Shown piece by piece: positions 17,370 through 51,069 of a DNA stretch of 64,000 nucleotides (positions are counted from its first letter, which is position 1; the number at the start of each line of letters is the position of its first letter). The notes under the pieces were generated by a model. That model saw only the letters and a program-made list of their open reading frames with translations. It was not told the origin of the DNA and searched no databases. The position numbers and the translations under genes are program-made. This stretch comes from Sinohyriopsis cumingii (taxonomy: Eukaryota > Mollusca > Bivalvia > Unionida > Unionidae), in the NCBI GenBank assembly GCA_028554795.2, contig CM068831.1, positions 59,581,180-59,645,179 of the forward strand, read 5' to 3'.

Positions 17370-17500
17370 TTAGGTATAAAAAGGTAAGTGTCTTTGGGTT
17401 TTGATTTTAAAATAAGAACCTATACTCACGCACTCATGCACAGACACGTACTATAGGGTAAAATGGGGTTTATTTTTAGTTATTGGCAACTGAAAGTCTA

Positions 17501-17538: not shown

Positions 17539-17559
17539 ATTTTTTGTTTAGGGGTGAGT

Positions 17560-18621: not shown

Positions 18622-18688
18622 TCATGACTTTCAGTTGCCTACCCCTTTTTATTTTTTGTTTGTGTGTTCCATTTCCATAGACCCGTAA

Positions 18689-27851: not shown

Positions 27852-27888
27852 TATAATAATGATATCTTTTTAATTCAATTTAATTTTA

Positions 27889-28553: not shown

Positions 28554-28565
28554 ATATATTATAAC

Positions 28566-32400: not shown

Positions 32401-32918
32401 TTGAAAATTTCATGGTGTCAGTTGGGTTTTTTATTTATCTCATAGATTCCATAAATAACTGCTGTTACAGGGTACGCTCGCTCATAATACGGTTTGTCAA
32501 CACCCGTCAACAGACCCAGTCTGGAATTTTTACTTAATATGGCAATTTTATTATTACCAAGGACAGGATCATATTTGTCACGGATAATCCAACTACCTGT
32601 TTCTGTTAGTACAATAAATTTTACTCTGAAGAAATATTTTTGATTGCCCTCGTATTCAGTGATGTAGTTAATGATAGTTGCCGCTCGCTTGTCATTCATT
32701 GTGGCGTCCTTGACAGTGTTGCGAATAATCTTGAACGTTGACTATGTATGAGATGCACCATCCGTGTAAAATTCTTTCTTGGCGTCGTGAATTTTATTGA
32801 TCAAACTTTTATTTTTCGGATCAACCAAATCTCGTACTGGTAAGTCGGGGGATAGTCTGTCGAGGTTGAATTTATATTTAACAGGCCTAGTTTGGGATAA
32901 TCTCTCGAATTCATTCAT
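29464..32918 (-). pseudogene. PolB-SF1 helicase-HNH fusion, degraded
   Basis: Homologue of the intact 45,780-48,752 gene, starting at ATG 32,918 (MNEFERLSQTRP). Lesions: TAG near 32,740, frameshifts or stops near 32,415, 31,930, 31,850 and 31,630. The long remaining frame (31,618-29,648) keeps RVATDSFYI (motif C) and helicase motifs LNGPGGCGKTTRA, WDEICTV, YGDHGQP and LSQGLTI; motif A (DMVACYPGSFLGYGD) is in the 31,849 fragment. In a frame shifted near 29,690 it continues into an HNH-like zinc domain with CASCNCVM, FTVDRKDNSRGHT and LTCLECNRRRGAG, ending at 29,464. The 2b copy lacks this domain. Confidence 0.82.
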
Positions 32919-32960
32919 ATAATTAAAACAAATATTTAAATAAAGAATATTATATATACA

Positions 32961-33260
32961 ATGAATCAGTGCATTTGGCTCATGATCGGTTCAGTAAATC
33001 GATGTAATAAATCCTGTAGAGGTGAATTTTGTTGGATGCACTTACAAAATATACGGCGAGGAAGCTTAGGAGCAATACCATGTCTGCGATGTGGTATTGG
33101 GGTGCGAGGAAAAACAGAATTATGTGGAAAGTGCGGTGCAAAACGATTCAGAGAACTTAAAAGATATTATGATAAAAAAAATAATAATAGTGAAAACGCT
33201 ATAAAATCCGTGGAGGAGTATATATCAAGATTTCAGACAAACAATGATTTAAACAAATAA
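32961..33260 (+). CDS. Zinc-ribbon protein of element 2 family
   Basis: 99 residues, intact. The N-terminal MNQCIWLMIGSVNRCNKSCR with CRGEFCWMH looks like one metal site; the ribbon PCLRCGIGVRGKTELCGKCG gives two further CX2C pairs, followed by RELKRYYDKK. The 2b homologue at 45,458-45,748 and a broken third copy at 27,470 share this pattern. It starts directly after TATATATACAATG and ends 10 bp before the HNH gene on the same strand, the same cassette as in 2b. Function unknown. Confidence 0.68.
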   Translation: MNQCIWLMIGSVNRCNKSCRGEFCWMHLQNIRRGSLGAIPCLRCGIGVRGKTELCGKCGAKRFRELKRYYDKKNNNSENAIKSVEEYISRFQTNNDLNK

Positions 33261-33270
33261 TATTATTATA

Positions 33271-33882
33271 ATGGAGCAAAATATATTTGTCCTACATCCC
33301 ACAATAACAAACTATGAATCAGATCGTTATGGTGTCATCAGACACTGCAGGTTGAAGAGACCGGTTGGTGTTGTTTCTACTACTGGCTATCTTAGATTTA
33401 CAGTTGGGAAGAAAAGATATCTGTGTCATCGATTTACGTATGAGTGTTCCTTCGGAGTGATCAAAGATGATCTTGTTATTGATCATGTTGACGGGGATCC
33501 TCAGAACAACTCCTTATCCAATTTACAAGCTATCTCACGGAGTGAGAATAGTATGCGTGGTAATACTGGTAAATACTCAAAAATTGCAAGATCAGTTAAG
33601 TCTACAAACACAGAAACTGACGAAGAAATTATATTTAAATCAATGAACGCGGCTGCGATATACTTTGATATTGACTCGCGTGTGGTAAAATACGTCGCAG
33701 AAAATATAACCAGATCTACTTTCTCAAAAAATATAAGCAGAAAATCACCTTTCAGTATTGTTAACTATCATCACCACCTCGAATTATATTATTTTTTGGG
33801 TCAGAAATTATCATTATTATACTACTTATTTTTTGACTCACGAAAGGGAGGTAATTTTATGATCCTCGGTATATGGTCATAA
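33271..33882 (+). CDS. HNH homing-type endonuclease
   Basis: 203 residues. RYLCHRFTYECSFGVI, then LVIDHVDGDPQNNSLSNLQ and SRSENSMRGN form the HNH_3-type nuclease signature (DHxDGxxxNN). The C-terminal half holds a modular DNA-binding helix-turn-helix, FKSMNAAAIYFDIDSRVV, typical of phage and organelle homing enzymes. The last 40 residues are hydrophobic and probably run-on after decay or insertion: the adjacent 1.3 kb is foreign compared with 2b. Preceded by ATTATTATAATGG. It could mobilise the zinc ribbon-HNH cassette. Confidence 0.75.
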   Translation: MEQNIFVLHPTITNYESDRYGVIRHCRLKRPVGVVSTTGYLRFTVGKKRYLCHRFTYECSFGVIKDDLVIDHVDGDPQNNSLSNLQAISRSENSMRGNTGKYSKIARSVKSTNTETDEEIIFKSMNAAAIYFDIDSRVVKYVAENITRSTFSKNISRKSPFSIVNYHHHLELYYFLGQKLSLLYYLFFDSRKGGNFMILGIWS

Positions 33883-33889
33883 TCATATA

Positions 33890-35225
33890 CAACATCCAAG
33901 GTTTGTGATGCCTGGTGGAGCAAGTTGAACAGTATGCATTACAGAAAGGATTTATGATTTCTAACTTACAAAAATATGCAGTTCGTGTATTTTTCTGCCC
34001 TATTCGTGAAACATTTAGAACAGCGCAACACATAGAATACATGTATATTTCATCTAACCTACAGAAAACCGAGCGCAGTATGACATGTATATTCCAGCTT
34101 ACTGAGTGCAGAATCCAGCGTCTAGTCTGTATCGATCGTGGCGGGTTAATTTTAGATCCAATGTACAGCACATGGATCCTGCATGTACTGACTCGATTAC
34201 AGAAATACGTCCATAATAGTGTTTGGAATTAAAAATCAGTTGCATTTTCCTTGTTCAGTGCAGAAATATAATGCGAGATTGTGTATGTATGTGTGATTAT
34301 TTATTTATCGAGTAAACTCCCTTTGACCAGTCATAGATAGGATGGAAAAATCTAGCAGTTAGATGATCTGGACCGGATGTTCTATCATAGATGGCGTGGT
34401 TTAGTAAATAGGAAATTCCTTAATTCAGCTTTGTTTGGTGAGAATATATTGTATAAACGTATTTCTTGAATTCAGAATAGTATTTTGAGCAAATATTTTA
34501 AATTAGTTCCTTTTCAATGATTATTAGCTATATATTAACTTCCGAAACATATGTTTGTAATAAGATTTGATAGCTCAGTCGGTATCGTATTGGACTGTGA
34601 CGCTCGCAGTCCAGGATCGAATCCCCATGGCTGACAACTGGTCGGTGGTGTACGCATAATTGCGATTTTTATAATAATGGGGGGGGGGGGGCGGCAGCAT
34701 AAAGCCCCTCCGCTCAGCAAAACTCAACCACCATATCAACCGGTGGTTGATACATATTTTCGCATCACCCACGGGCTCGATTATTGTGGGTGGGGTTTTG
34801 CTGAGCGTATATGTTTGTACTGTCCTTCATTCATTATATGTTTGTACTGTCCTTCATTCATTCATTTCATCTCACTCATTCAGTTATTTCATCTCATTCA
34901 GTCATTGTATATATTTCATTTCATACCTAATGAACTTGCTAAAAATCTCGAATAGAAGTTCATTTCATAATATATGTTTGTGCCGTCATTCATTCATTGT
35001 ATATATCCATAATCTGAGCTCGCTAAAGACTCGATAGCGGCTCTTCATTCATTGTATATATCCATTTCATTGTATATCTTCACCAAACAAACCATCTTGG
35101 GCCTCTAGACCGTTGTTTGACGGGTTAGGGGCTCTCATAGGGGGTAGTGTTTCGTGTACCTGTGCCGTCCTTGAAACATCCCGACGAACTCGCTAAAGAC
35201 TCGATAGGGGTTCTATAGGGATAAT
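33890..35225. mobile_element. Insertion of about 1.3 kb between HNH and helical gene of 2a
   Basis: In 2b the two flanking genes are 23 bp apart; here they are 1.37 kb apart. The insert holds a tRNA-like segment, a G11 tract, short direct repeats of TATATGTTTGTACTGTCC and (near 35.0-35.2 kb) repeats of CGCTAAAGACTCGATAG. No coding frame of substance. Confidence 0.5.
34563..34640 (+). repeat. tRNA-derived SINE-like head
   Basis: TAGCTCAGTCGGTA resembles a Pol III A box and GGATCGAATCC a B box about 45 bp later, spaced as in a tRNA. The 3' part does not close into an acceptor stem, so this is a tRNA-derived repeat and not a functional tRNA. Confidence 0.5.
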
Positions 35226-35257
35226 TTTTTTTATTTTAGAGATTTATATATTATATA

Positions 35258-35635
35258 ATGAACCATGAAAATATCAAAGACATTATTTCTGCTATTAGAA
35301 AACTAGAAGAAAACGGAATTAATATATCCGATGAACTAAATCGTGAAAAAATAATATCTGATTTTGAAACGTTAGAAGAACTTAAAAATGAAAATAAGTA
35401 TGTTCTATCATCTCAATATAAGTTCATAAAGCGGATTCAGGCAGCTATGTTTCAGTCACTGGCTATGGTGAACGATGATCAAGTAAATGAATTTATTCCT
35501 CTTTCTGTTGCAGTAAAAAAGATCAGGTTGGGATTATCCAGCGAATACGAAACAAAAAAAAAAACAATCAGTACCCGCATAAGATACTTAAGAAAAATTA
35601 TGTCAGCGGGTAACGACCAAAGCAACCCTGAGTAG
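35258..35635 (+). CDS. Small helical protein, element 2 family
   Basis: 125 residues, predicted all-helical: MNHENIKDIISAIRKLEENG, then a conserved core YVLSSQYKFIKRIQAAMFQS and a basic C-terminus. The homologue at 44,468-44,842 has the same layout (YTLPSEYKLIKKIQIAIYQS). Both sit just after the HNH gene on the same strand. The start follows TATATTATATAATG. No known family recognised. Intact. Confidence 0.6.
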   Translation: MNHENIKDIISAIRKLEENGINISDELNREKIISDFETLEELKNENKYVLSSQYKFIKRIQAAMFQSLAMVNDDQVNEFIPLSVAVKKIRLGLSSEYETKKKTISTRIRYLRKIMSAGNDQSNPE

Positions 35636-36989: not shown

Positions 36990-37089
36990 NNNNNNNNNNN
37001 NNNNNNNNNNNNNNNNNNNNNNNNNNNNNNNNNNNNNNNNNNNNNNNNNNNNNNNNNNNNNNNNNNNNNNNNNNNNNNNNNNNNNNNNN
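36990..37089. other. Assembly gap (100 N)
   Basis: Exactly 100 unknown bases, the usual placeholder for a gap of unknown size. The head-to-head arrangement of 2a and 2b therefore rests on scaffolding. Confidence 0.98.
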
Positions 37090-38073
37090 TCAAGAAAGAA
37101 AAAAGATCAGAGTGATGAACCGATAATTGTTCCCGAACATATATTATCACCGGCTAGTAGTTTGTTTACAATTAATCCTAAAATATCTGCTAGAAATTAT
37201 TTGGATGAAAAAATGCTGCATTTAACCCGCAACTATGATTCAGTAGTTCAGATGGCTGCGGATAATTCTCCGGAAAATAAAAGATTACTTTTACGAAAAG
37301 ATATTGATGTTGATAAACTTGACGAAATTGATTGGCTAGCAATAATGTATTTTGGTAGTTTAGAAAAACCAATAATATATGATGATGAAAATTTTGGAAA
37401 ATTTTCATCAGATGTTATTAAATACAGATTTGCAAGTGCAAAAAAGACAATTTCGCCACCCAAAAGTAAAAGTTCGTCACCCAAAAGTAAAAGTTCATCA
37501 CCTAAAGATAAAGGTTCACCGCCTAAAAGTGATAGTTCTGAATCATTTTCCTTTGATCTTCACCACTCTCCTCTTCTCTCTCCCACATTATATCCAAGGA
37601 GACCTTCTGAATTCCCCTCTTGGCGCCCCCCACCTCCGGAACCAACAGCGTCAAACTACAGGGGTCCCACTGAGAAATATTTATTATACGATCCTGAGGG
37701 TAAAAAACTAGAAAGACACCCGGCTGGGACTCCCCCATCTCCACCAGAAATATATTCACCACTGACATCGTCAGGGACATCGCCGGGATCACCATCAGAG
37801 GAGAAGAAATCTTCATCGCCGTCAGACGATTTATTCTACGTAACGCCATTGGAATCTCCAGAAACAAAAAAAACAGGAAGTGGATATTCAGTTTGTCCCG
37901 ATAGTGTTGTCAACGATGTATCTCGCCTCGAAGTATTAATCGGAGGAAAGCGAGCCGGAAATAACTCCCGTGAGATAGTCAACGAAGCATCAGATATTTG
38001 TCAGCGATTATTCCGTGGTGGTATCATCGATTCTCACATTTATAAAGAGTTTGTCGATGAACTCATCGATTAA
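37090..38073 (+). CDS. Ser/Pro-rich virion-associated protein, 5' partial
   Basis: The first codons are in the gap. The visible 327 residues begin SRKKKDQSDE and contain an ordered part (ARNYLDEKMLHLTRNYDSVV), SP-rich repeats (KSKSSSPKSKSSSPK), a long Pro/Ser disordered region and a conserved-looking C-terminus SRLEVLIGGKRAGNNSREIV with FRGGIIDSHIYKEFVDELID. It is the first gene of the capsid operon, 20 bp upstream of the pVI-like gene. The C-terminal domain could bind capsid or DNA; no family recognised. Confidence 0.6.
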   Translation, partial: SRKKKDQSDEPIIVPEHILSPASSLFTINPKISARNYLDEKMLHLTRNYDSVVQMAADNSPENKRLLLRKDIDVDKLDEIDWLAIMYFGSLEKPIIYDDENFGKFSSDVIKYRFASAKKTISPPKSKSSSPKSKSSSPKDKGSPPKSDSSESFSFDLHHSPLLSPTLYPRRPSEFPSWRPPPPEPTASNYRGPTEKYLLYDPEGKKLERHPAGTPPSPPEIYSPLTSSGTSPGSPSEEKKSSSPSDDLFYVTPLESPETKKTGSGYSVCPDSVVNDVSRLEVLIGGKRAGNNSREIVNEASDICQRLFRGGIIDSHIYKEFVDELID

Positions 38074-38093: not shown

Positions 38094-38591
38094 ATGATTG
38101 TTCATAAACATCAACGCAGACCTAATCAGGTCCGCATAGTAAACTCTCGATTGCCAGTATACAAATATATTCACGGTAATGGATTTGGCGATATCATTGG
38201 AAGTCTTGTCACGCGAGTAATACCTAAAATTGGACCAATGGTAAAACAACTAGGATTAAAAGCAATAGGAAAGATAGGTGAGACTGCTGTTTCTGGTATC
38301 GGTAATTTGGCCAGTAAAGGCTTCAACGCTATCAAAAATAAAATATTAAGTTTAGTACGTAAAAAACAACCCGTCAAATTACCCATTACCAGCGAAATGC
38401 CACCCGAAGTCAGTAAGGCCATAAATGATGCGGCAAATAAAAAAATAAATGATCTAGCACAGGAAGCTGCTATAACAAATCTAGCACAGGAAGTTGCTAA
38501 GACAAATCTAGCGCAGGATGTTGCTAGGACAAATCTAGCAAATACAAGTTTTGTTTCAGGCGATGGTCTTCGTTTTAGACGATATTATTAA
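38094..38591 (+). CDS. pVI-like minor capsid protein
   Basis: 165 residues, intact. Basic N-terminus, then YIHGNGFGDIIGSLVTRVIP and an amphipathic Gly/Ile-rich helix region up to KNKILSLVRKK, as in Polinton and adenovirus-like internal capsid proteins. The C-terminal third is a small tandem repeat of AxxTNLAQ(E/D)VA units (about 8-10 residues, four copies). It lies 6 bp before the MCP, the same neighbour as in element 1. Membrane-lytic function is inferred from the family only. Confidence 0.65.
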   Translation: MIVHKHQRRPNQVRIVNSRLPVYKYIHGNGFGDIIGSLVTRVIPKIGPMVKQLGLKAIGKIGETAVSGIGNLASKGFNAIKNKILSLVRKKQPVKLPITSEMPPEVSKAINDAANKKINDLAQEAAITNLAQEVAKTNLAQDVARTNLANTSFVSGDGLRFRRYY

Positions 38592-38597: not shown

Positions 38598-40022
38598 ATG
38601 TTCTCACAAGTGTCAAATGAAGTATTTGACATGGATGAACCAGTAGGTAGGGATACATCAGTGCGAGATTTCCAGTATTTCTCGTACGACACAGTTACAC
38701 CAAATACTGATAATCGCCTGGAAATTCAAGTTCACGATACAACAAGATATTTTCTTCCATCTGAGGCATATATCGAAGTTACCGGTGAAATTACTAGAGA
38801 TGACGGCGTTACTCTCTATGGAGCAGATTTTAGAGTCGGATTTGTTAATAACGGTATTATGGCATTATTCAAGAGCGCCACTTACATGATTGATGGAAAA
38901 GAGATTGAGTCAATTACCAATGATGTTGATTTAGCAACAACGATAATAGGTCTAGCGAGATACTCGGATGATTTTACCAGATCAGCTGGTCCGGGTATGA
39001 TGTTTGCCAAAGATAATTCTGATCGTCCCGATAATAGACCGCTTGATATCGGACAACCTAGAGATCGCGCCGCCCCCCCAGTCCTTATTAATACTGTCCA
39101 AGATCTTCCCCTCGGCACTAATCCTGATTATAATCTTGGATTTGCCACGAGAAAATCCATGTTGTGGGATATACGTAGAAAATTCTCTTGTGCTATTCCG
39201 TTATCTCATATATTTGGATTTTGCAGGCATTTTAGAAAAGTTATTTACGGAGCAAAGCATACCGTAACATTTATTAGAAAAGCAGATAGTAATGATGCTA
39301 TTTGGCGAGAAGGTGATATCAATTACCAAACGAACGTGGTAGGTGCAAATGATACCACGAATCATGGAGGTAGGGTAAGATTACTAAAATTTACCTTGTG
39401 GATGCCAGCGATGACTCCATCATTAATCGTGGAAGAAAAATTATTATCATTTATGAATCAAGGTGGTAAATCTATCATGTCATGGCTAACAACAACAACA
39501 GATTCCACAACTACTGATATTGATGGTGATTTTACTTGGCGCATTGCATCGCAGCAAGGTACCTCTGCGCCACGTCATATCTTTGTCGCTTTTTTGCATA
39601 CACGAAGATATCATCAATTATATAGCCACATGATATTCGATAATATTCACGCAACAAACGTGTCACTGAGAGTAAATGGCCAACAGGAGCCATCCGAGGA
39701 AATATCCATCAATTTTGAAAATTATTCGACAGCTCGCGCATATCATCGATTGTTAAGTTTCATGGGTCGCGATCAAAATATCGATACTGGATTGCAAATA
39801 TCACAACTAGATTTTAATAAACTTTATCCTATTTATTACTTTTCCTTGGAACATCTCGATTTGATAAAGCAATCCGTCGTCGATATTCATTTCAAAGCTA
39901 GAATTCGAACAGGAAATAATTTATATAAGGTATTCGCAGTAATTCTCAGTGATAGAACAATGTTCCTGGAAGGCATCAGCGGTAGAATGAGAGTTATCGA
40001 TGCACCCGTAGAGAACATGTAA
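38598..40022 (+). CDS. Double-jelly-roll major capsid protein
   Basis: 474 residues, intact. The N-terminus has RDTSVRDFQYFSYDTVTPNT followed by beta-rich segments such as LPSEAYIEVTGEI and an NGIMALFKSATYMIDGKEIE strand pair, the Polinton/F54H12.2-like MCP pattern. The second jelly roll contains PLSHIFGFCRHFRKVIYGAK and ends VFAVILSDRTMFLEGISGR. Length fits the family. Trimers of this protein would build the icosahedral shell. It is very diverged from the element 1 MCP. Flanked by pVI-like and pX-like genes. Confidence 0.85.
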   Translation: MFSQVSNEVFDMDEPVGRDTSVRDFQYFSYDTVTPNTDNRLEIQVHDTTRYFLPSEAYIEVTGEITRDDGVTLYGADFRVGFVNNGIMALFKSATYMIDGKEIESITNDVDLATTIIGLARYSDDFTRSAGPGMMFAKDNSDRPDNRPLDIGQPRDRAAPPVLINTVQDLPLGTNPDYNLGFATRKSMLWDIRRKFSCAIPLSHIFGFCRHFRKVIYGAKHTVTFIRKADSNDAIWREGDINYQTNVVGANDTTNHGGRVRLLKFTLWMPAMTPSLIVEEKLLSFMNQGGKSIMSWLTTTTDSTTTDIDGDFTWRIASQQGTSAPRHIFVAFLHTRRYHQLYSHMIFDNIHATNVSLRVNGQQEPSEEISINFENYSTARAYHRLLSFMGRDQNIDTGLQISQLDFNKLYPIYYFSLEHLDLIKQSVVDIHFKARIRTGNNLYKVFAVILSDRTMFLEGISGRMRVIDAPVENM

Positions 40023-40055
40023 TAAATTCTAAATTTAGATTAAGTGATTATTAAT

Positions 40056-40553
40056 ATGCCATACGATCACGTCAGCGTAACTCTGACCCCGGGTCAGGTG
40101 AAAAAACTTCATGCAGCAACAACAGCGCGACGAGGTTTAAGTTTAACCTTAAAAAGTAATCAACTTCACGGTGGACCTAACAAACTATCGTTAACTAAAA
40201 ATCAACACGGACATTTCACCAGAGCCAGATCAGCAAATACTGGTATTCGCTTGAATCTCTCAATAGGAGCAATCAGAGATATGATCAAAGTAGGTGGTAT
40301 TTTTCCATTGGCTGCGCTTATACCTGGGATAATAGCAGGTGCAAAAGCATTAGGATTGGGCGCACTTGGAGGGATAGGTTCCGCAATAGCAGGAAAAGTT
40401 GTTGGAAGAGGATATCGCAAAAAAAAGGGAGGATTTCTCTCCCCCTTCTCTCTTCTAGCAAAAGTGCTGCAGACGCAACAAGGATCCGGCCTTTACCTAA
40501 GACGACCCCCGTACGGATCCGGGTTAAGTCGAGCTTACCAACCTCAAATTTAG
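40056..40553 (+). CDS. pX-like basic protein with glycine-rich hydrophobic domain
   Basis: 165 residues from ATG 40,056 (MPYDHVSVTLTPGQVKKLHA); the earlier GTG is not needed. N-terminal part basic, then GGIFPLAALIPGIIAGAKAL with LGALGGIGSAIAGKVVGRGY, a hydrophobic Gly/Ala segment, and a basic tail RKKKGG. Proteins of this type recur in animal Polintons and are compared with adenovirus pX or VI. The stop at 40,553 lies inside the upstream extension of the protease frame. Confidence 0.6.
   Translation: MPYDHVSVTLTPGQVKKLHAATTARRGLSLTLKSNQLHGGPNKLSLTKNQHGHFTRARSANTGIRLNLSIGAIRDMIKVGGIFPLAALIPGIIAGAKALGLGALGGIGSAIAGKVVGRGYRKKKGGFLSPFSLLAKVLQTQQGSGLYLRRPPYGSGLSRAYQPQI
40421..40427 (+). other. Possible -1 slippery heptamer A_AAA_AAG
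   Basis: In the pX-like frame codons AAA AAA AAG (40,419-40,427) form A_AAA_AAG. A -1 shift here enters a frame that stays open through 40,607 into the protease. A GGATCCG/CGGATCC inverted pair lies about 50 nt downstream. Speculative. Confidence 0.25.
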
Positions 40554-40606: not shown

Positions 40607-40945
40607 ATGCGAGATCAACTACCAGATAAACCAAATCCCACCGAGACAGGAATAATAAATCTCGATGAAAATTCCGGTCCTGGCACTCACTGGGTTGCCT
40701 ACGCGATTAATCCTCGCGAAGTTATTTACTTCGACTCATATGGATTAGCACCGCCAAATGAATTTATCAAATATGTGTCAAAATTAAAACTTCCAGTTTG
40801 GTATTCAACACTTCCAACACAAACATTAGCGGATCCACCAATATGCGGTCCAGAGTCAATTAATGTCCTTGATGCAATTTCAAAATCATCCAATCCTTAT
40901 CGCAAAATTTTATTTGAATATACCGTAGATAAATATCATGGTTGA
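40607..40945 (+). CDS. Adenain-like cysteine protease (start unclear)
   Basis: 112 residues from the first ATG. Motifs: GPGTHWVAYAI (catalytic His), VIYFDSYGLAPP (Asp) and DPPICGPESINVL (Cys; the Gln of the usual QCG is absent from this context and PIC precedes G). The frame is open upstream of the ATG and codes the conserved AKKRKIKFFRGVFMRDQLP segment expected at the N-terminus of Polinton proteases, but I find no ATG there. The true start is therefore non-AUG, by frameshift from the preceding gene, or lost. The stop overlaps the fibre ATG (ATGGTTGA). Confidence 0.78.
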   Translation: MRDQLPDKPNPTETGIINLDENSGPGTHWVAYAINPREVIYFDSYGLAPPNEFIKYVSKLKLPVWYSTLPTQTLADPPICGPESINVLDAISKSSNPYRKILFEYTVDKYHG

Positions 40946-42311
40946 CATTTACGGTAGATCTCTCTTTAGGAAAGAAAAAAAAGACGCAGTCGACATCGAT
41001 ACATCAAAGTTTGCAACCAAGAGCGATATTAACAATCTTTTATCGCTGTCAGAAGTTGATCCTGGTGAAGTTGCTGTTTTTCAAAATACAGAAGGGCGAT
41101 TACAAACTAGCAACGTTAAAATAACTGACATAATCAAGCGAGACGAATACCGCGATCACATTAGTCAATTTACTCGCCAATCGGAGATGGTATTAAAATC
41201 TGTTGCTGATATCGCCGATATTATAGCAAAGTTACCCCTGAAGGCCGATAAAGCATTACACGACGAACTTCAAGATAGAATGACAAAAAGACTTAACAAA
41301 CTAAATAACGATCTTAAAAAACTTGACGATATTTTAGCTAAATTTAGCAAAAAATTTGACGAGAATATAAAAACATCCAGTGATACTTCCTCCGTATCAG
41401 ATCAAGCATCACATGACGATCTTAGCGAGAAAATAAAAAAAATCAACGAGGAAATTACTAATATTCTTGCCAAAATTAACGAAGTAAATATCTCGATGAG
41501 TCAGAAAATCGATAAAACATCAATCGACGATCTCAACAAAAAAATAAAAAAAATCAACGAGGAAATTACTAATATTCTTGCCGAAATTAACGAAGTAAAT
41601 ATCTCGATGGGTCAGAAACCATCGATCGACGATCTCAACAAAAAAATCAACGAGGAAATTATTAAACTCGGTAATGTTGTTGTTCCTGAATTTACCAAGG
41701 GGATTAACTTGATGCAAGGACAAATAAAATCCATCAACGATGAAATTAACGTGGTACGTGAATTAGCGCGTCAAAAAGTCGATACATCAACGTACGACGG
41801 AGAAATTCGAGATTTAAACACGAAACTTTTTGCTGCAACAGCAAAGATTGACCAATCCGTCGATAAAACTGGTCACGCCACTGACGTAAAGCAATTAGGT
41901 AAAGAAATTGACGATATCAACACAAAAATATCGTCAATGAAACTTGGAAAATTATCGCGAATTTCGATACCAACGGAGGTAGAAACAAAAAATATTGTCT
42001 GCAATGTGCCATTTGTGTTTAAGACATACAATTATAATTGGGACCCTAAAAAAGGTATTATCGGATTTTATTTCACCGTACCAATTACCGGCGTATATCG
42101 AGTATATGTTATTTCCAAGATAAAGTTTAAAATAAAATCGAATAGTGAAATTCATGAATTCTACCCCGGATTTTTTATTATTTCTATAAAAAAAAATACC
42201 GGCGTAGTCTGCGATCTAGAACCGCCAGATAGAACCACCACAGAACCGGTGGATTATTTTGTAATTTTCGAATATTTATCGGGATTGGAAACAGTTGGTA
42301 TTCCAGGATAA
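40938..42311 (+). CDS. Trimeric coiled-coil fibre with C1q/TNF-like head
   Basis: 457 residues. A short N-terminal tail (MVDIYGRSLFRKEKKDAVDI) is followed by about 290 residues of heptad coiled coil with tandem 35-37-residue repeats around DDLNKKIKKINEEITNILA, and a C-terminal beta domain of about 120 residues with GIIGFYFTVPITGVYRVYVI, the strand pattern of C1q/TNF-like heads. This is the architecture of an adenovirus-style spike: tail to penton, shaft, receptor-binding head. Intact. It is translated with overlap from the protease gene. Receptor unknown; fold assignment is by pattern only. Confidence 0.65.
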   Translation: MVDIYGRSLFRKEKKDAVDIDTSKFATKSDINNLLSLSEVDPGEVAVFQNTEGRLQTSNVKITDIIKRDEYRDHISQFTRQSEMVLKSVADIADIIAKLPLKADKALHDELQDRMTKRLNKLNNDLKKLDDILAKFSKKFDENIKTSSDTSSVSDQASHDDLSEKIKKINEEITNILAKINEVNISMSQKIDKTSIDDLNKKIKKINEEITNILAEINEVNISMGQKPSIDDLNKKINEEIIKLGNVVVPEFTKGINLMQGQIKSINDEINVVRELARQKVDTSTYDGEIRDLNTKLFAATAKIDQSVDKTGHATDVKQLGKEIDDINTKISSMKLGKLSRISIPTEVETKNIVCNVPFVFKTYNYNWDPKKGIIGFYFTVPITGVYRVYVISKIKFKIKSNSEIHEFYPGFFIISIKKNTGVVCDLEPPDRTTTEPVDYFVIFEYLSGLETVGIPG

Positions 42312-42351: not shown

Positions 42352-42882
42352 ATGACCGCATCTGATTACCGTTACAATCAGGCGCGATCATGGCAGGATT
42401 CGTTGCGAAAACAACTTGACGATTATCAAACAAAAATAAATAAATACCAGCGCAAATTAGTTATCATTGATGTTGCAGTGTACGCGGTATCAGCTGTAGT
42501 TGCTGGTGCAGGAATAATTTTATCCGCGGTAACAATGATAGCGCCAATCGTAGCAACAATAATAATCTCGTCAACAACAGCAATCGCGGGTGTTCTAAAT
42601 ATCATCGCGAAAAAAATATCATCTTGCACAAATGAGAAACTATATTTGTACAAAAACAAACTAACTAAGGTAAATGACGCGTATTCGAAGTTATCATTGT
42701 TACTTTCGGAGAGTCTCAATGATGGTATTATATCCGATCTAGAATTTTCTGCAATGATCGGTATTTACTCGGAGATTGAACAAATGAATATTAATAATGT
42801 CCGATCTAGCCCAGATAGTGACAAACACGACACCGCCAACAACAACGTTAATATCGCTAAGTTCAACGAAACCCGAGTTTAG
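42352..42882 (+). CDS. Membrane protein with hydrophobic hairpin
   Basis: 176 residues. An N-terminal amphipathic helix (SWQDSLRKQLDDYQTKINKY) is followed by two adjacent hydrophobic spans (VAVYAVSAVVAGAGIILSAV and APIVATIIISSTTAIAGVLN) and a soluble helical tail. The 3' end overlaps the penton gene by 86 bp in another frame. The Ala/Gly-rich hairpin resembles membrane-active proteins. It lies between fibre and penton, like the membrane gene next to the element 1 penton, though the sequences are not clearly related. Confidence 0.55.
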   Translation: MTASDYRYNQARSWQDSLRKQLDDYQTKINKYQRKLVIIDVAVYAVSAVVAGAGIILSAVTMIAPIVATIIISSTTAIAGVLNIIAKKISSCTNEKLYLYKNKLTKVNDAYSKLSLLLSESLNDGIISDLEFSAMIGIYSEIEQMNINNVRSSPDSDKHDTANNNVNIAKFNETRV

Positions 42883-44347
42883 CATTAATTTCTCAACACC
42901 AATCAGCGTCAACGAAATTGCATTAACACAGTTGCGTGTCTACAACAGCTGGCCTAATGTTAGATCAAAATCATTCGGTAATTTGATGTCAAATAATTCA
43001 CTAGTTTTTGCAAATAAGAATAAACCCGATGGAACACCGGATTGGATCGTTGTTGGTATACCAACGGGCAGTTATGAAATTGATCAGCTGAATAATGAGT
43101 TTACCACTAGAATATCAAATTTAACCGGCGATGCTACTCCGGGAATAAAGATATCTTCACATGATCCAACATTATCGTCAATGATAGAAGTGAAATCACC
43201 GTACATGGTAGATATTTACCAATCATCGATTAGAAATATATTAGGTTGGCCCGAGGTCGCACCTCTGGTAGAACCAAAGAAATCGGATGTTATTATTCCA
43301 GGTTGGTATGATGAAACCCTTCCAGAACTACCGGAACCAAAGAAATCGGATTTTACAACCGACGAAGGATGGTATGGAGATATCAAACACAAACCTTTGA
43401 TCCACAGCGCCATCAATCTCATGAATAACCACAAAATTAACCTAGTAATGTTCGCTTTCACTTTTATTAACGAAAGAATTCTCTCATGGCTGCCTCTTCC
43501 TAAAATCCCCCCAGATGTGAAAATCTTCGACGCTACCCACATTAACAGGATAATAGCCCCCATAGACGGTATCTTGGTAAGAAGAACCCTCGACGAGTTT
43601 ATTCAAGAACACGAATCACAATTAAATTTATTGCGAGGATCATTTCATGAATGCATCCTAAATAAATCAGGTTCATGCAGCGAAATTATAAAGCATGTGA
43701 AAATTTTAAATCAACTTGCGAATGATATTGAATATTATCATGATATGTTTATTCGGGCGATAGTCGACGATATATCAATTGCCGACTATGTTCTTCCTAT
43801 TAGCAAATTCGAGTTGATCAAGAACTCGGGTGAGAAACAAAAATTCATGAGAGTATTTGAATTAACCGAGGAAACACTGCCAAATTTCAAATTTCCCAAT
43901 TCTGATTTTGATGCGATGAGAAAATCCGTCACTGATACCATTGATGATTTATTTCCGAAATTACATGCCTCATGGACCAAAAAAATATATTCAGAATTGA
44001 TTCTCAAACACAATAATGATCCTGCCGGGCAAGGGCGGCATATCTCGCCTGGTATCGTCAATATAACGGAAGTTATCGCGATTTATCTTCACGCGGATGT
44101 TGTCGAGGGTAGTTACAATGTTGATGCGTCAGAGTCAAATCAAGCCCATCAGGGTTTTATATTGTATTCATTTTCACCTAGCGCATCTCCTGGTTATTTG
44201 ATAATCAAGGAACCAATGAATCCGTTTTACCTGCGATGTCATAATCGATTTTTATCAAGAATAAATTTCAAACTAACGGATCAGAAAGGAAATTTACTTG
44301 ATATACGCGGGGAAACTGTGAGTATCAATCTTTTGGTGAAATCATAA
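42797..44347 (+). CDS. Penton protein with large internal insertion
   Basis: 516 residues, longer than usual Polinton pentons (about 250-320). The N-terminal part, ISVNEIALTQLRVYNSWPNV with GIPTGSYEIDQLNNEFTTRI, and the C-terminal part, LSRINFKLTDQKGNLLDIRG, are family-like and would form one jelly roll. Between them (residues about 150-420) is a helical domain starting with two EPKKSD repeats, each followed within a few residues by GWY, and including HINRIIAPIDGILVRRTLDE. The 2a fragment ends the same way. The insertion would project from the vertex. The reading frame is intact. Confidence 0.65.
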   Translation: MSDLAQIVTNTTPPTTTLISLSSTKPEFSINFSTPISVNEIALTQLRVYNSWPNVRSKSFGNLMSNNSLVFANKNKPDGTPDWIVVGIPTGSYEIDQLNNEFTTRISNLTGDATPGIKISSHDPTLSSMIEVKSPYMVDIYQSSIRNILGWPEVAPLVEPKKSDVIIPGWYDETLPELPEPKKSDFTTDEGWYGDIKHKPLIHSAINLMNNHKINLVMFAFTFINERILSWLPLPKIPPDVKIFDATHINRIIAPIDGILVRRTLDEFIQEHESQLNLLRGSFHECILNKSGSCSEIIKHVKILNQLANDIEYYHDMFIRAIVDDISIADYVLPISKFELIKNSGEKQKFMRVFELTEETLPNFKFPNSDFDAMRKSVTDTIDDLFPKLHASWTKKIYSELILKHNNDPAGQGRHISPGIVNITEVIAIYLHADVVEGSYNVDASESNQAHQGFILYSFSPSASPGYLIIKEPMNPFYLRCHNRFLSRINFKLTDQKGNLLDIRGETVSINLLVKS

Positions 44348-44467: not shown

Positions 44468-44842
44468 TCAGGATATAGATGATTCCCTAATTTTACTTTC
44501 ATCGACAAGTTTTTTCAGTTGCCTGACACGCGAACTTGTAATTTTTCGTGATTCATAAGCGTCTGATAAAATCAATCTAGCATTTTCTACTAGCATCGAT
44601 AATTTAACAAAATCCTCGATGTGATTATCGCTGACTGTCGCAAGTGATTGATATATCGCGATTTGGATTTTCTTTATTAATTTATATTCCGACGGCAGCG
44701 TATATTTATATTCAAGTTTTCCTTGAACAATCATTTCAAATTCAGATCGAATTTTATTTGTGTCTAACTCCGATGGAAGATTTATCTTTTTCTTCAGATC
44801 ATCAATCGCTGCAATGATGTCGTTTATTATTTCTTCGTCCAT
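44468..44842 (-). CDS. Small helical protein, element 2 family
   Basis: 124 residues (MDEEIINDIIAAIDDLKKKI), homologous to the gene at 35,258-35,635: the same helical core YTLPSEYKLIKKIQIAIYQS and basic C-terminus. The start follows ATTAATATAATG. It lies 23 bp downstream of the HNH gene and converges on the penton gene. No known family. Conservation between the diverged halves argues that it is a real gene. Confidence 0.62.
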   Translation of the reverse strand: MDEEIINDIIAAIDDLKKKINLPSELDTNKIRSEFEMIVQGKLEYKYTLPSEYKLIKKIQIAIYQSLATVSDNHIEDFVKLSMLVENARLILSDAYESRKITSSRVRQLKKLVDESKIRESSIS

Positions 44843-44865: not shown

Positions 44866-45447
44866 TTATTCTTCGTCGTCGTCATCATCATGATCTTCGT
44901 CATCATTGAATATTATTGGTACATAAGAGAATCTGATCCACTCGCCGAGATTGTAGGAAAATGTTCTGTGAATTATTCCCTCCGCTGCTCGCCACACCGA
45001 TATTACATTAATTTCATAATACTTTGCAGCAGCATTTATCGACTCAAATATAATTTTTTCATTTGTTTCTAGATTTATCGACTCAACTGATTTGGCATAT
45101 TTCGGATACCTTCCAGAATTACCTGAGGAACAATTTTCACTTTGAGTCACAGCTCGAAGATTGGAAAGTTTGTTGTTGAGTTTATTTCCATCGATATGAT
45201 CTATAACCAAATTATCATTGATGAGTCCATGAAAACATTCGAATGTAAATCGATGAACGAAGTAATGTGTGTTTCTTCGTATATTATTTTTATTGATTGT
45301 AAATCTGAGATATCCATTCATATCAACAAAACCAACAAAATTCTTTGTTCTGATGTGTCTGACATTTCCATCCTTGGATGCTTCGTAACCATCAATGATG
45401 GGATGTGATTTATATTCACTCATGGGAATCGTTGATTTCATTTCCAT
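44866..45447 (-). CDS. HNH homing-type endonuclease
   Basis: 193 residues from a start after AATATTATATATG. HYFVHRFTFECFHGLI and LVIDHIDGNKLNNKLSNLRA with TQSENCSSGN form the HNH_3 nuclease; FESINAAAKYYEINVISVW is the modular helix-turn-helix. The extreme C-terminus is a run of Asp/Glu. Homologous to the 33,271 gene and in the same cassette position, 10 bp downstream of the zinc ribbon. Intact, so possibly active. Confidence 0.8.
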   Translation of the reverse strand: MEMKSTIPMSEYKSHPIIDGYEASKDGNVRHIRTKNFVGFVDMNGYLRFTINKNNIRRNTHYFVHRFTFECFHGLINDNLVIDHIDGNKLNNKLSNLRAVTQSENCSSGNSGRYPKYAKSVESINLETNEKIIFESINAAAKYYEINVISVWRAAEGIIHRTFSYNLGEWIRFSYVPIIFNDDEDHDDDDDEE

Positions 45448-45457: not shown

Positions 45458-45748
45458 TTATAAGTCTAAATCATAATTTGCTTTGAAACGATTAATATAA
45501 TCTTCTTCACAAGAAATTACTGATAAAGATTTCTTTTCATAATATCTTCGTAACTCACGATATTTCTTTCCACCACAAGAAAAACACAATCGAGTCTTTC
45601 CTCGAATGCCAACTTGGCAAACTAAGCATCGTTGTGGTCCTTTGTTACCTCGTCGAACTTCGTATATATGAGCGCCGCAATATTCACCTCTGCAGGATTT
45701 GTCACATGACTTTGTTGATCCGACTATTATCCACGCACATTGCTTCAT
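45458..45748 (-). CDS. Zinc-ribbon protein of element 2 family
   Basis: 96 residues. MKQCAWIIVGSTKSCDKSCR with CRGEYCGAH, then RCLVCQVGIRGKTRLCFSCG and RELRRYYEKK: three Cys clusters conserved with the genes at 32,961 and 27,851. Its ATG (after AAATTATAATG) is separated by only 31 bp from the divergent PolB-helicase ATG, so both promoters must lie in or at the start codons. Function unknown. Confidence 0.7.
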   Translation of the reverse strand: MKQCAWIIVGSTKSCDKSCRGEYCGAHIYEVRRGNKGPQRCLVCQVGIRGKTRLCFSCGGKKYRELRRYYEKKSLSVISCEEDYINRFKANYDLDL

Positions 45749-45779: not shown

Positions 45780-48752
45780 ATGGATTTATTTGATCTTGAT
45801 GAGGCAGAATATATCATTCCTGAAGTAGATCGTGCAAAGAAAGAATTTTTCGATGATGGAGCGATTCATACCTGGTCGACATGGAAAACTAATTTTGTTG
45901 ATGCTACGATGAATCTGGAGCGAGCAAAGAAGATAATCGAACATATAAAATCTGAACACAAAGAGGAGCGATTTATCTTTGGAATAAAATTTATCGCACA
46001 AATGCCCGATGACACTTGGATTATTCGCGATAAAAGAGATCCAGTACGCGGCGGTAAGAAAAATGTCGTTCTTGATAAAAATTCGAAGCCGGGATTGTTA
46101 TTAGGGATTGATGGTCCTTATTATGCTAGGGCGTATCCTTCTAGTGCTGTAGTGTATGGAATTTATCGGCTGAATAATAATCCTGATGCGAAAAATTTAC
46201 CTGCGATGAAAGAATCTCCGATGATAAATTGCGTGGCTGAACGCGTTATCGAGCATATGAAAAACGCTTGTCGTGGATCTGGTCTGACTCAATTAAGACT
46301 GGATAAAATTAATTTATGGGCAAGGACGGTTACTGATGGTGCATCGATTGATGATGTTGCTGCGCTGAGCAAGAAACTTAAATTTCCTATTACGGTTAAA
46401 ACGTTATCGGGTGAAATATTATATTCGTCACCGTATAAGTCTCGAGGAACACCAATCGAAATTGTTGATCATAATTCACATGCGTGGAGTCAGTCGGTAA
46501 TGATATTTCCACGAGATCGTGTTGTTAAATTTTATCCCGTGGAAGAATCCAAAGACAATTCTGATGCAATGTTTAGGTTTATCAAACTATTAGCCAAGTC
46601 CGATCCAATATCGATTTGGTTATTTTCTAGCGAAGAAAGATACGATCAATTTATCTTACCACGCGGAGATATTTACCGAGATGAAATATTACACGAAGCG
46701 ATGAGAAATATCGCGGAGAAGTATTCGTCAAATCCAGATCGATTACTGACAAATTGCTTTACTGTTCCGTCTGTTGCTGCTCATGCTGCCAGAGAAAGAA
46801 ATTCGTGGAAACCTACAAGAAATGAATTTCTCAATGATATTCAACTTAGTTGTATCGAATACGGCCATGGAGGATTATGGAATACCAAATATTATTTCGA
46901 GGATATGATTTCCGTTGATATGAGCGCATGCTATCCTGGAAGTTTCCTTGGATACGGCGATTGTGCAGATTACTTTGCTAAATTCGGTCATCCCACCAAC
47001 GAGATGACTAGAGTTGCAATTAACGGACCGTTACCCGATTTTGTCATGACAGGATTCGCTAATGTTACTTCGTTTGAACTTGCTGAAAATTTGCATAAAA
47101 TTTGTTATATTTGGTTTGGTCGGCATTTATCTCAGCGAAGATGGGTCCCTACGGTATTGTTGAGATTTATGTTGGATTCGTCGATGTTGATATCGCTGAC
47201 GGTAAGTGAAGCGATTATATCGTATAGAAAGCAGACCGAGGTGTGGTTACCCACGGATTGTGAGAACGCGAAAGATATTGGAAGAAAAATAATTGGTAAA
47301 TTTACTCAAGGAGGATCAGTTGATCATAAACATCGCCATGCTAGGTTATTTATCAATGATGCCGAGGTGGATTTTATTATTGCTGATACAGTATCGCGCG
47401 GAATATTCTGCAACAGAGAAAATATTATTATTGATGGAGAAAAGTTAGGTACCGTGATTAGTTATCTTGATGGAGAGTCAGCACAATATACGCATTTGAG
47501 ATCGTCAATGCTAGCTTATGTCAGTATTAATTTACTGTCGATGATAAATAAATTTGCTGATATCGCGGTAAGGGTTGCAACGGATTCGTTTTATATCGAT
47601 AAAAAATTCCAATGTAGGTTGGAGAATTTAATCGCCGATGGTTCATGGGGAACCTGGAGAATAAAGAATGAGGATATTCTAGATTATTGTGAAGACGCTG
47701 ATGTGGAAGATTGCAATAAGTTTCATAAAAACCAATATGATGAAATATCAACAGCAGCATCCGCATTCGATCCGATTTCACGAAATAAATTTGTTTACAT
47801 GAATGGTCCTGGCGGTAGTGGTAAAACTACACGAGCAATAAACTTATTTTCAAATTCTGATATGATCGTGTTAACTCCAACTCACAGACTAGCAAGAGAA
47901 ATAAAGCAGCGTGGTGTTAATTCTTGTACTTATCACAGTTATTTCAAATATAGTGGTGGATTGTGGGATCCGGCTCGAATGGGAAACAAGTACGTTAATA
48001 AGATTATAATATTTGATGAAATTTGCACAGTAAATTTAGTTATACTAAAATCATTCCTAAGTTGGTTGGAAGAGAAAAACACCGCAGTAATAATGTGCGG
48101 CGATCACGGCCAACCTGATCCTATTGATGGCGAATCTCCTCATAGATGGCTTAGAAATTTTGTGGATTATTATGAAGAGATTGATGCTGATTATAGATCT
48201 AATGATATTTTACTGACCGAGTTTAAAAAAATGATTCGATTACAACCGAATAAGTTTCAATGTGATGTGATGAGAAAAATAATTGATGAGACTCCGATGG
48301 ATAATTTTCTAACTTTGTGGCGTCCAGATCATTTGATCGTTGCTAGCAGAAAAATTGTTCGTGATAATATTCAAGAAATACTATTTAAGCTTCACTGTGA
48401 GAAATTTCCAACGTTGCAGGTTCCGTTATGCTATAAGCCCGCTGATACTAGGAAACAAAATATTAATGTTACTTTGCCATGCGGAGAAGAAAAAATATTA
48501 GTTTTGAATGATATTATTTTCGTTGATATTAATCTTGTCAATGATGCGATAAACGCAGAAAGATCTCCATGGAAACTCGGATACGCAGCAACGATACATT
48601 CATCACAGGGATTAACAGTAGATGGCCAGGTCTGGATCGTCGATGACAGAATTTCCTGGTCAAATTTAGTTTATCTGGCCGTGTCTCGAGTAAGAAAATT
48701 ATCTCAGTTAGGTAGAATTAAATTTCACATTAACGACGATGGTGGTAATTGA
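45780..48752 (+). CDS. DNA polymerase B-SF1 helicase fusion
   Basis: 990 residues, intact. The N-terminal 370 residues lack a recognisable DxE/NxxxYD exonuclease. Motif A ISVDMSACYPGSFLGYGD has its Asp at 380; GRKIIGKFTQGG is a candidate motif B; HLRSSMLAYVSINLLSMI leads into motif C RVATDSFYID at about 598-607, with ATDS in place of DTDS. The helicase follows: Walker A GPGGSGKT 676-683, DE 746-747, motif III GDHGQ 774-778, ATIHSSQG 937-944 and VSRVRK 968-973, a Pif1/RecD-like SF1 set. It probably replicates the viral genome. The 2a homologue has an extra C-terminal HNH domain. The end overlaps the convergent integrase by 28 bp. Confidence 0.83.
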   Translation: MDLFDLDEAEYIIPEVDRAKKEFFDDGAIHTWSTWKTNFVDATMNLERAKKIIEHIKSEHKEERFIFGIKFIAQMPDDTWIIRDKRDPVRGGKKNVVLDKNSKPGLLLGIDGPYYARAYPSSAVVYGIYRLNNNPDAKNLPAMKESPMINCVAERVIEHMKNACRGSGLTQLRLDKINLWARTVTDGASIDDVAALSKKLKFPITVKTLSGEILYSSPYKSRGTPIEIVDHNSHAWSQSVMIFPRDRVVKFYPVEESKDNSDAMFRFIKLLAKSDPISIWLFSSEERYDQFILPRGDIYRDEILHEAMRNIAEKYSSNPDRLLTNCFTVPSVAAHAARERNSWKPTRNEFLNDIQLSCIEYGHGGLWNTKYYFEDMISVDMSACYPGSFLGYGDCADYFAKFGHPTNEMTRVAINGPLPDFVMTGFANVTSFELAENLHKICYIWFGRHLSQRRWVPTVLLRFMLDSSMLISLTVSEAIISYRKQTEVWLPTDCENAKDIGRKIIGKFTQGGSVDHKHRHARLFINDAEVDFIIADTVSRGIFCNRENIIIDGEKLGTVISYLDGESAQYTHLRSSMLAYVSINLLSMINKFADIAVRVATDSFYIDKKFQCRLENLIADGSWGTWRIKNEDILDYCEDADVEDCNKFHKNQYDEISTAASAFDPISRNKFVYMNGPGGSGKTTRAINLFSNSDMIVLTPTHRLAREIKQRGVNSCTYHSYFKYSGGLWDPARMGNKYVNKIIIFDEICTVNLVILKSFLSWLEEKNTAVIMCGDHGQPDPIDGESPHRWLRNFVDYYEEIDADYRSNDILLTEFKKMIRLQPNKFQCDVMRKIIDETPMDNFLTLWRPDHLIVASRKIVRDNIQEILFKLHCEKFPTLQVPLCYKPADTRKQNINVTLPCGEEKILVLNDIIFVDINLVNDAINAERSPWKLGYAATIHSSQGLTVDGQVWIVDDRISWSNLVYLAVSRVRKLSQLGRIKFHINDDGGN

Positions 48753-49675
48753 GTATCCTTTGGTATTATTTGTAATTCTTCTTTGGTAAATCCGCGTTGT
48801 GGCGCTAGTGAATCTAGAAAATAAATCGCTGGCCTTCCTGATGATCTTGTTACAGCTGATATTTTATGTGTCGTAACACTCCAGTTTGGATCAGTTGCTC
48901 TTTTTCTGCCACCCTCGGCTTCTCCTTCCTTATACAAATACCTTACAATAACGCTACCTAGCACAGGTGGAATAGTAGAATCTCGCTTTAGTGGTATTTT
49001 TGTTTTTGTAATTGCAGTTGCGGGCTTCATTGATATTGTTCGTGTTACCTCATTATTTAGCGCGTTAATCACGTGAGGTAATCTTGTTACCCAATCGCGA
49101 GATCGTTTATCTTGGATAAATTCTCTCGCGTACTGATATCCGAATAATCGTTCTGCAAGAGTTTTATTGAATCTCTCAACGATAGCTTGATTGTGATGAA
49201 CACCTACAATACCGCGACGGATTTTAACATTATTCTTTTTCATCAGTGAAGTAACCGCGCCAAGAAATTCTCGACCTGGATCAACCTGGAGAAGCTTCGG
49301 CCATGTTAATGGAGATCGTGAATAGATTTCGCTAAACGCCTTAGCAATCTCTGTTGCTGTTTTATTCGATAACGGTTCCGCTTCCTTGTATCTGCTAGCA
49401 ATATCAACAACCGTCAACACGTATTTATATGTGACTCCGTCAACGGTATCGTAAGGAAGAAACATAAGATCAGCCTGATGGACTTCATTAGGTACGCTGA
49501 CAGAGAAACTCGCATATGATATTTTCTTAGGCGGAGGAAGATAAATTTGCCAGACCGCCTGCCTCGATAGCCACGATTCAGCGACAGATTGCTTTACTTT
49601 TGCTGCCTTGGCAAGTTTGGCTATTGCTGATTTTCCCTTCCAAAATCCTCGCGGAGAATAATATATTTGCTCCAT
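48725..49675 (-). CDS. Retroviral-type integrase
   Basis: 316 residues, intact. Residues 1-60 form an N-terminal helical/DNA-binding region, the rve core follows with Asp69 (EVHQADLMFLP), Asp132 (LLQVDPGREFLG) and Glu167 (AIVERFNKTL), a complete DDE triad. The C-terminal part has GSVIVRYLYKEGEAEGG and ends LDSLAPQRGFTKEELQIIPK; no chromodomain, unlike element 1. The ATG shares a base with the stop of the upstream PLA2 gene (TAATG). Presumably inserts element DNA. Confidence 0.88.
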   Translation of the reverse strand: MEQIYYSPRGFWKGKSAIAKLAKAAKVKQSVAESWLSRQAVWQIYLPPPKKISYASFSVSVPNEVHQADLMFLPYDTVDGVTYKYVLTVVDIASRYKEAEPLSNKTATEIAKAFSEIYSRSPLTWPKLLQVDPGREFLGAVTSLMKKNNVKIRRGIVGVHHNQAIVERFNKTLAERLFGYQYAREFIQDKRSRDWVTRLPHVINALNNEVTRTISMKPATAITKTKIPLKRDSTIPPVLGSVIVRYLYKEGEAEGGRKRATDPNWSVTTHKISAVTRSSGRPAIYFLDSLAPQRGFTKEELQIIPKDTQLPPSSLM

Positions 49676-50197: not shown

Positions 50198-50848
50198 ATG
50201 AATGTAATTGATTTTTCAGCCACAAAGAAACGCGAGAAAATGAAACATATCGAGGCATTACCAAATTCGATTAGAATGATAATCATTGGACCATCTGGTT
50301 CTGGAAAGACGCAGTTGTTACTAAATTTGATAATGAGATGGCTAAAATGGGATAAGTTGTATTTGATTGCACCGTCCGTAGATGATCAACGATGTTATAA
50401 AGTACTAAAGGAATTTAGCGATAATACTGAGGATGGCACAATAGAATTTATAACGGATATTAATGAAGCTCCATCAGTGGAAAGTTTAGACGGTGATGCT
50501 AATAATCTTGTTGTTTTCGATGATGTGATGCTGGATAAGCAAACTAACCCAGCTAGGATATTCTCGCGTGGCCGACACAAGAACACCGATGTGATTTACG
50601 TGACGCAGCGATATACGCAAATTCCAAAGGTGATTAGAGATAATTGTAATATTTTATCGGTATTTAATGGCGTTGATACTCACACGCTGAGGAATATTCA
50701 TCAAACTTGGTGCAATGGCGACATGGATATAAATAAATTCAAAAATTTCTTCAGTCACGCTCAGGCAACACCGCACGGTTTTGTCACAATTAATCTTCAT
50801 GATCCACGTAGTAGATATCGTGTTGGTCTTGATCAAATTTACTCATAA
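50198..50848 (+). CDS. Genome-packaging ATPase (HerA/FtsK type)
   Basis: 216 residues, intact. Walker A GPSGSGKT at 31-38, Walker B NLVVFDDVMLDKQ with FDD at 107-109, and DVIYVTQRYTQIPKVIRDNC. The start ATG is 14 bp from the divergent PLA2-gene ATG. Close homologue of the broken 27,889-28,553 gene and more distant from the element 1 ATPase. It is the last gene before the right end of the element. Confidence 0.9.
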   Translation: MNVIDFSATKKREKMKHIEALPNSIRMIIIGPSGSGKTQLLLNLIMRWLKWDKLYLIAPSVDDQRCYKVLKEFSDNTEDGTIEFITDINEAPSVESLDGDANNLVVFDDVMLDKQTNPARIFSRGRHKNTDVIYVTQRYTQIPKVIRDNCNILSVFNGVDTHTLRNIHQTWCNGDMDINKFKNFFSHAQATPHGFVTINLHDPRSRYRVGLDQIYS

Positions 50849-50890
50849 AATTGCAGCCCAAATTTGCAATCACAAATAAATTTTACAATA

Positions 50891-50947
50891 TCCCCCCCAA
50901 AAAATGCTGCTATTTTTTTTATGCCCGAAAATGCAATTTTGGGGGAG
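50891..50947. repeat. Imperfect inverted repeat near the element 2b end
   Basis: CCCCCCCAAAAAATGC and GCAATTTTGGGGGAG form an imperfect stem with about a 25-nt loop. Its place just beyond the last gene suggests a terminal structure, but no matching end was found at 27.4 kb. Confidence 0.35.
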
Positions 50948-51069
50948 ATTTTGCGGATTATTTTTCGTAGGAGGTTTTATTTTTGAATTCTGAGGCTTCT
51001 ACGGAGAAATGTTTGGTGGGAGGCTTAAATTTATCTGAGCCACCTGGTCTGTACGCCTTCCCTGCTGCT

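Follow-up and report, generated by a model that had tools for sequence, protein, structure and literature searches.

The window analysed here is a stretch of 64,000 nucleotides from a genome of 2,904,868,851 bases in 1138 contigs. On its forward strand lies an open reading frame (45780-48752) that runs from ATG to stop with no internal stop and encodes a protein of 990 amino acids. This protein is designated P0001, and its relatives in the eight-row family alignment P0002 to P0008. The gene product is a viral replication protein, in which a DNA copying enzyme without a proofreading part is joined to a DNA unwinding enzyme. The sequence-only reading of this DNA had described an intact fusion of a PolB polymerase with an SF1 helicase and without a visible exonuclease, located in an element with a double-jelly-roll (DJR) capsid gene. 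Both observations were confirmed by the stop-free frame, the polymerase motifs A, B and C, the SF1 helicase matches and the capsid gene of the following inventory:

27882-35635, minus strand: another element of this kind, degraded and oppositely oriented, with ATPase, integrase, a broken pPolB-S1H gene (29648-32783) and HNH
36990-37089, no strand: scaffold gap of 100 N, where the left end of the window's copy is missing
37090-38073, plus strand: incomplete ORF at the left margin of the window's copy, cut by the scaffold gap
38094-38591, plus strand: small conserved ORF ahead of the capsid gene, with no family match better than E 0.1
38598-40022, plus strand: DJR capsid gene (PF21738, 2.9e-12; 27 homologues; found in 12/12 other copies examined)
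40044-40553, plus strand: small ORF behind the capsid gene
40607-40945, plus strand: candidate adenain/Ulp1-like maturation protease (PF00770, E 0.023, below cut-off; 68% identical in the second family)
40938-42311, plus strand: coiled-coil, fibre-like ORF with weak family matches
42352-42882, plus strand: ORF conserved in the second family, no function assigned
42797-44347, plus strand: candidate minor capsid protein, proposed from position; no family match
44468-44842, minus strand: small ORF; the degraded copy has its counterpart at 35258-35635
44866-45447, minus strand: free-standing HNH endonuclease (PF13392, 1.1e-14)
45458-45748, minus strand: zinc-ribbon-like small ORF (weak DZR matches, below cut-off)
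45780-48752, plus strand: pPolB-S1H (Tlr1-like) replication protein, 990 aa, assigned from motifs, helicase matches and genomic copies
46218-46487, plus strand: candidate vOTU cysteine-protease core with the invariant residues C151 and H231/H234
46917-46943, plus strand: polymerase motif A, DMSACYPGS (D380), from alignment and motif pattern
47271-47303, plus strand: polymerase motif B, K498-x7-GKF, from alignment and motif pattern; R replaces K in P0003
47577-47588, plus strand: polymerase motif C, ATDS, residues 600-603; first Asp absent, D602 kept; IDS in P0004
47757-48719, plus strand: Pif1/Dda-like SF1 helicase domain, from Pfam, PHROGs, PDB profile search and motif positions; Walker A at 47805-47831
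48725-49675, minus strand: rve-family integrase (PF00665, 1.8e-8), intact in 8/8 copies examined
50198-50848, plus strand: A32/FtsK-like packaging ATPase (PF04665, 4.7e-12)
50853-51069, plus strand: right terminal inverted repeat, 217 bp, length taken from another copy

Exactly 100 N at 36990-37089 separate the degraded from the intact element and, because of this scaffold gap, their neighbourhood may not be real.

Judged by its sequence, the C-terminal third of P0001 belongs to the SF1 helicases (Pif1/RecD/Dda type). Residues 662-793 matched the Pfam families AAA_30 (5.9e-9) and AAA_19 (6.8e-9), and a Dda-like helicase was matched in PHROGs (1.6e-18). The C-terminal helicase motifs aligned weakly with Pif1 structures when one sequence was used (best E 0.001), and Pif1-type structures were matched at 5.6e-8 in a PDB profile search using the family profile. 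Of the HMM searches against PolB and SF1 families that had been proposed, those for SF1 gave these matches; for the polymerase half, no Pfam polymerase model matched P0001 at E values up to 1.

The polymerase part was recognized by its motifs, to which a GxW at residue 624 can be added. A motif pattern derived from phi29 and PRD1 (D-x4-YP, K-x7-GK[FYW], TDS and GxW, in this order and with wide gaps), drawn up only after the motifs had already been noticed in P0001, was fitted by none of 100,000 shuffles of this protein. The spacing from motif A to motif B is 118 in P0001 versus 134 and 120 in phi29 and PRD1, and that from motif B to motif C is 103 versus 74 and 89, respectively. Six of ten phage sequences (three of the ten are fragments about 300 residues long) fit the pattern from A to C, and five fit it with GxW (phi29 and PRD1 among them). 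It is also fitted by half of the eight family-alignment proteins, including P0001; the four misses are two incomplete proteins, P0003 (R for K498) and P0004 (IDS for TDS). A comparison of the palm profile with ten phage pPolB sequences was dropped as evidence (E 0.27; 16/60 shuffles scored equally high, and the helicase part reached 17.0, nearly the palm's 17.8), and an AlphaFold2 model of the whole protein was discarded as unusable (mean pLDDT 39). The palm assignment therefore rests on the motifs and on the selection described below.

No Pfam exonuclease match was obtained in P0001, and at the sequence level no ExoI D-x-E is invariant in residues 1-379 across six alignment rows; on this point the profile comparison with phage pPolBs had no power. 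The residues C151, H231 and H234 are conserved without exception in P0001-P0005, in P0008 and in 13/13 genomic copies (the partial proteins P0006 and P0007 were left out of the residue counts for both Cys/His and D-x-E). They precede the palm, which is the position of the vOTU protease in the published scheme of Tlr1-like helicases (Krupovic et al., PMC11071308). This region may thus be a vOTU-like protease, and a priming domain might lie upstream of it.

The window also harbors a classical Polinton (element 1), from which the fusion element differs, as had been proposed from the sequence. Element 1 encodes PolB sequence with DNA_pol_B_2 matches (5.1e-6 and 5.5e-10) in separate frames, an ExoI-like DFE in the ORF 15062-15622, an integrase and an A32-type ATPase. 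Its PolB (12886-15622, minus strand) has N-terminal parts in 14563-15622 and the motif B/C part in 12886-13857, and since it is split over several frames, this copy looks broken or interrupted. A scan of IMG/VR viral contigs with the element 1 PolB gave no relative. Element 1 additionally encodes a BIR/IAP protein (11972-12646, minus strand; PF00653, 4.1e-23). A histone 3' UTR stem-loop was detected at 18581-18626 on the plus strand (RF00032, 36.2 bits, above gathering), and similar hairpin stretches, GCCCTGAAAAGGG, occur within 224-279, 1096-1151 and 17495-17550. They are located close to the borders of the region of element 1, whose ends are approximate, as if its mRNAs underwent histone-type 3' processing. 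A long array of 29-bp tandem repeats extends from 21758 to beyond 22942.

The fusion is no new kind of protein, since it matches the published plan of the Tlr1-like helicases. For these the name pPolB-S1H has been proposed, and they are described with the order TP-vOTU-PALM-S1H, with the exonuclease and the first motif-C Asp lost, and with tails of the HNH or GIY-YIG type (PMC11071308). Compared with this published description, P0001 likewise combines a palm and a downstream SF1 helicase in a single chain, with no exonuclease found, a motif C without its first Asp and candidate vOTU Cys/His residues upstream of the palm. An HNH-like tail, read by motif, is present in P0002, P0004 and the second family described below, whereas P0001 is without it; Pfam made no call on the P0002 and P0004 tails at E up to 0.01. 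Membership of P0001 in pPolB-S1H is thus supported at the level of sequence comparison. An rve integrase is also described for Tlr1 (PMC11071308). The novelty first ascribed to the fusion is largely removed by this earlier assignment, which includes the loss of the motif-C Asp. A different replication mechanism, also proposed from the fusion, does not follow from it as far as the start of replication is concerned, because PMC11071308 groups such proteins with protein-primed polymerases. The accompanying suggestion of a separate virus lineage is plausible.

According to the available parts of the literature, pPolB-S1H proteins are known from protist polinton-like viruses (PLVs), from Tlr1 and from transpovirons or giant-virus associates (PMC11071308, PMC12721341), and such fusions are mentioned in Aquintoviricetes (Tlr, Bigelowiella PLV) by Haro et al. 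(PMC12721341). The Helicase SF1-pPolB of an Oxyrrhis marina PLV is similarly a fusion of an SF1 helicase with pPolB; however, there the helicase comes first and the exonuclease is retained, and an independent origin was inferred (PMC12721341). With the classical Polintons/Mavericks (Eupolintoviridae, formerly Adintoviridae) the present element shares a length of about 15 kb, terminal inverted repeats, an rve integrase, an A32-type ATPase, a DJR capsid, a protease-like ORF and a probable animal host, but its replication protein appears to lack the exonuclease and carries a helicase.

Integrase, terminal inverted repeats and short target duplications, as in Polinton/Maverick elements, are all present, as are the DJR major capsid protein and the A32-type ATPase, the markers of Polinton-like viruses (Preplasmiviricota). 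The element ends were read in six other copies, in all of which the first 60 bases are identical as inverted repeats; the repeat is 217 bp long in the one pair measured. Target duplications read from the flanks measure 7 bp in four of the six copies and 6 bp in the other two. Three of the four had been scored 8 by the script, which took in an element-end base or shifted by one, and one lies in low-complexity DNA. The measured copy C4:55077033-55092199 is 15,167 bp long (calculated by hand from its coordinates).

Many intact copies of two families occur in this genome. Among 35,162 first-look candidates, the best 46 copies, the window's own included, are all full length, stop-free and 96-100% identical; being best matches, they demonstrate many intact copies and not the share of copies that is intact. 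A search with P0002 revealed the second family, in which 38 of the best 39 copies scored (85% identical to P0002) are stop-free, and five copies differ at 1-7 positions per pair over 3516 nt. The gene order of this family is the same in 4/4 upstream (capsid-side) pieces, and integrase and ATPase were found in 2/2 downstream pieces. Its capsid proteins are 59% identical to the capsid of the window's element, and its replication proteins end in the HNH-like tail, for which the tails of P0002 and P0004 are similar. Beyond this genome, annotated relatives of both the fusion and the capsid proteins are found in Sinanodonta woodiana, a freshwater mussel, where they lie on contigs 143 and 165 Mb long. 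The contigs of the present genome are up to 193 Mb in length, and the host is likely a bivalve similar to freshwater mussels, which have 19 chromosomes. Among the best 8000 candidates scored, protein searches with the fusion yielded close relatives plus a single relaxase-like helicase. A scan of prokaryote genomes gave no relative, and a phage tblastn gave nothing beyond weak Dda/RecD helicase matches.

Taken together, we consider it probable that this gene provides the replication protein for a DNA virus of the polinton-like supergroup that is integrated and was recently active. In this scheme, the palm of the polymerase would use protein priming to copy the linear genome, starting at the terminal inverted repeats and presumably with the help of a terminal-protein domain, while the SF1 helicase would open the DNA ahead of the palm and in this way replace the lost exonuclease module. 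The vOTU-like protease part may cut free the N-terminal part used for priming. Insertion of the copies by the rve integrase would give the target duplications of 6-7 bp, and the capsid genes would package element copies into virions.

The element could also be a self-synthesising transposon that spreads within the genome, carries its capsid genes as passengers and forms no virions. Many near-identical copies in one genome, the target duplications in the six copies examined, and the lack of any relative among IMG/VR viral contigs when these were scanned with the fusion protein, the capsid protein and alignments of both, would agree with such a transposon. Against it, the capsid gene was detected in each of the 12 copies tested (12/46, the window's own not counted; tblastn), seven at 98.7-100% and five at 69-73% identity. 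It reaches its normal end in 9/12; an early stop is present in L032, and in two copies the gene leaves the fetched piece, so that L036 and L042 were scored as undecided. Moreover, dN/dS between the two capsid types is about 0.2, which indicates past selection on the capsid protein. Among the near-identical capsid copies, dN/dS was 0.28 (6 sequences, mean dS 0.010), which was uninformative and was set aside. On balance, we regard a transposon without virions as unlikely.

It might further be argued that the palm is catalytically dead, that the helicase alone works and that a host polymerase replicates the element. The first Asp of motif C is missing in 7/8 alignment rows (those covering the site), all with Ala, and A600 is found in 13/13 genomic copies; the title of a 2016 paper terms this polymerase 'inactivated'. 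Its authors themselves revised this older view in the 2024 paper, because other PolBs without that Asp are active (PMC11071308).

The pattern of substitutions bears on the same question. In copies that merely decay after insertion, dN/dS is expected to be near 1. Among 13 of the 46 copies (the eight best matches and five more), the whole replication gene showed a mean dS of 0.153, a dN of 0.0082 and a dN/dS of 0.054, which shows purifying selection among the copies compared; as these copies were taken from matches ordered by their similarity at the protein level, they are not a random sample and dN is lowered. By segment, dN/dS was 0.092 in the N-terminal part (residues 1-329), 0.020 in the palm (residues 330-660) and 0.057 in the helicase; for the integrase it was 0.083 (8 copies). 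The palm thus has the lowest value of the protein within the family, which argues against a dead polymerase, and D380, K498 and D602 are retained in 13/13 copies. When the window's gene is compared with its counterpart in the degraded element, on the other hand, both parts are constrained, the palm no more than the helicase: dN is 0.272 (249 codons) with a dS of 1.86, close to saturation, for palm residues 409-660, and 0.252 (330 codons) with saturated dS for the helicase. Copy L045 has a dS of 0.41 in the palm versus 0.12 in the helicase, and such uneven values in some copies point to recombination outside the capsid gene too; as the copies are mosaics, dN/dS is approximate. An inactive palm therefore seems to us decidedly unlikely, and a polymerase that works together with its helicase is preferred.

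The two capsid types differ at 69-73% identity (L038-L042 versus L031-L037) despite replication proteins that are 96-98% identical. When the five diverged copies were compared with the window, dS was 0.83-0.98 for the capsid gene and 0.15-0.31 for the replication gene, while the neighbours of the diverged capsid genes in the fetched parts, the ORFs starting at 38094 (5/5) and 40044 (4/4; the L042 piece ends before it), retain 90-100% identity. A swap of the capsid gene between lineages best explains this contrast in dS. Diversifying selection in place, without exchange between lineages, might instead have produced the diverged genes in 5/12 copies, and the capsid differences are indeed uneven (from 53% to 97% identity by 40-codon block between the window and L038). 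However, selection at the protein level leaves dS unraised, whereas exchange raises it, so that the high capsid dS next to the low replication-gene dS of the same copies speaks for exchange and makes diversification in place improbable.

That the elements stem from a protist or a free virus sequenced alongside the animal, in line with the published sources of pPolB-S1H elements (protists or giant-virus associates; PMC11071308, PMC12721341), is very improbable, given copies on several contigs of more than 100 Mb, differing flanks with target duplications in the six examined, and the annotated relatives on the Sinanodonta woodiana contigs.

Within the literature searched, whose coverage was incomplete, we found no report of an animal pPolB-S1H. 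In the data of Bellas et al. (2023), cnidarian capsid genes are the sole metazoan ones outside the Maverick-Polinton cluster (PMC10120064). What is new within the literature searched is that the protein occurs in a probable animal setting, accompanied by an rve integrase and capsid genes, and in many copies that are intact and nearly identical; the evidence for selection and the capsid exchange are new there as well. Our most far-reaching reading, offered tentatively and with somewhat less than even confidence, is that of a distinct animal virus lineage that may still replicate and form virions, relies on a polymerase-helicase lacking the exonuclease, enters the germ line in bursts of integration and swaps capsid genes between co-resident lineages.

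Unlike in the published Tlr1-like elements, pPolB-S1H genes are found here in numerous copies within a large genome that is probably molluscan, and these many intact near-identical copies would extend pPolB-S1H to animals and supply many natural variants. The substitution pattern of the copies bears on the question of polymerase activity, and the capsid contrast points to an exchange of capsid genes among closely related elements within one genome.
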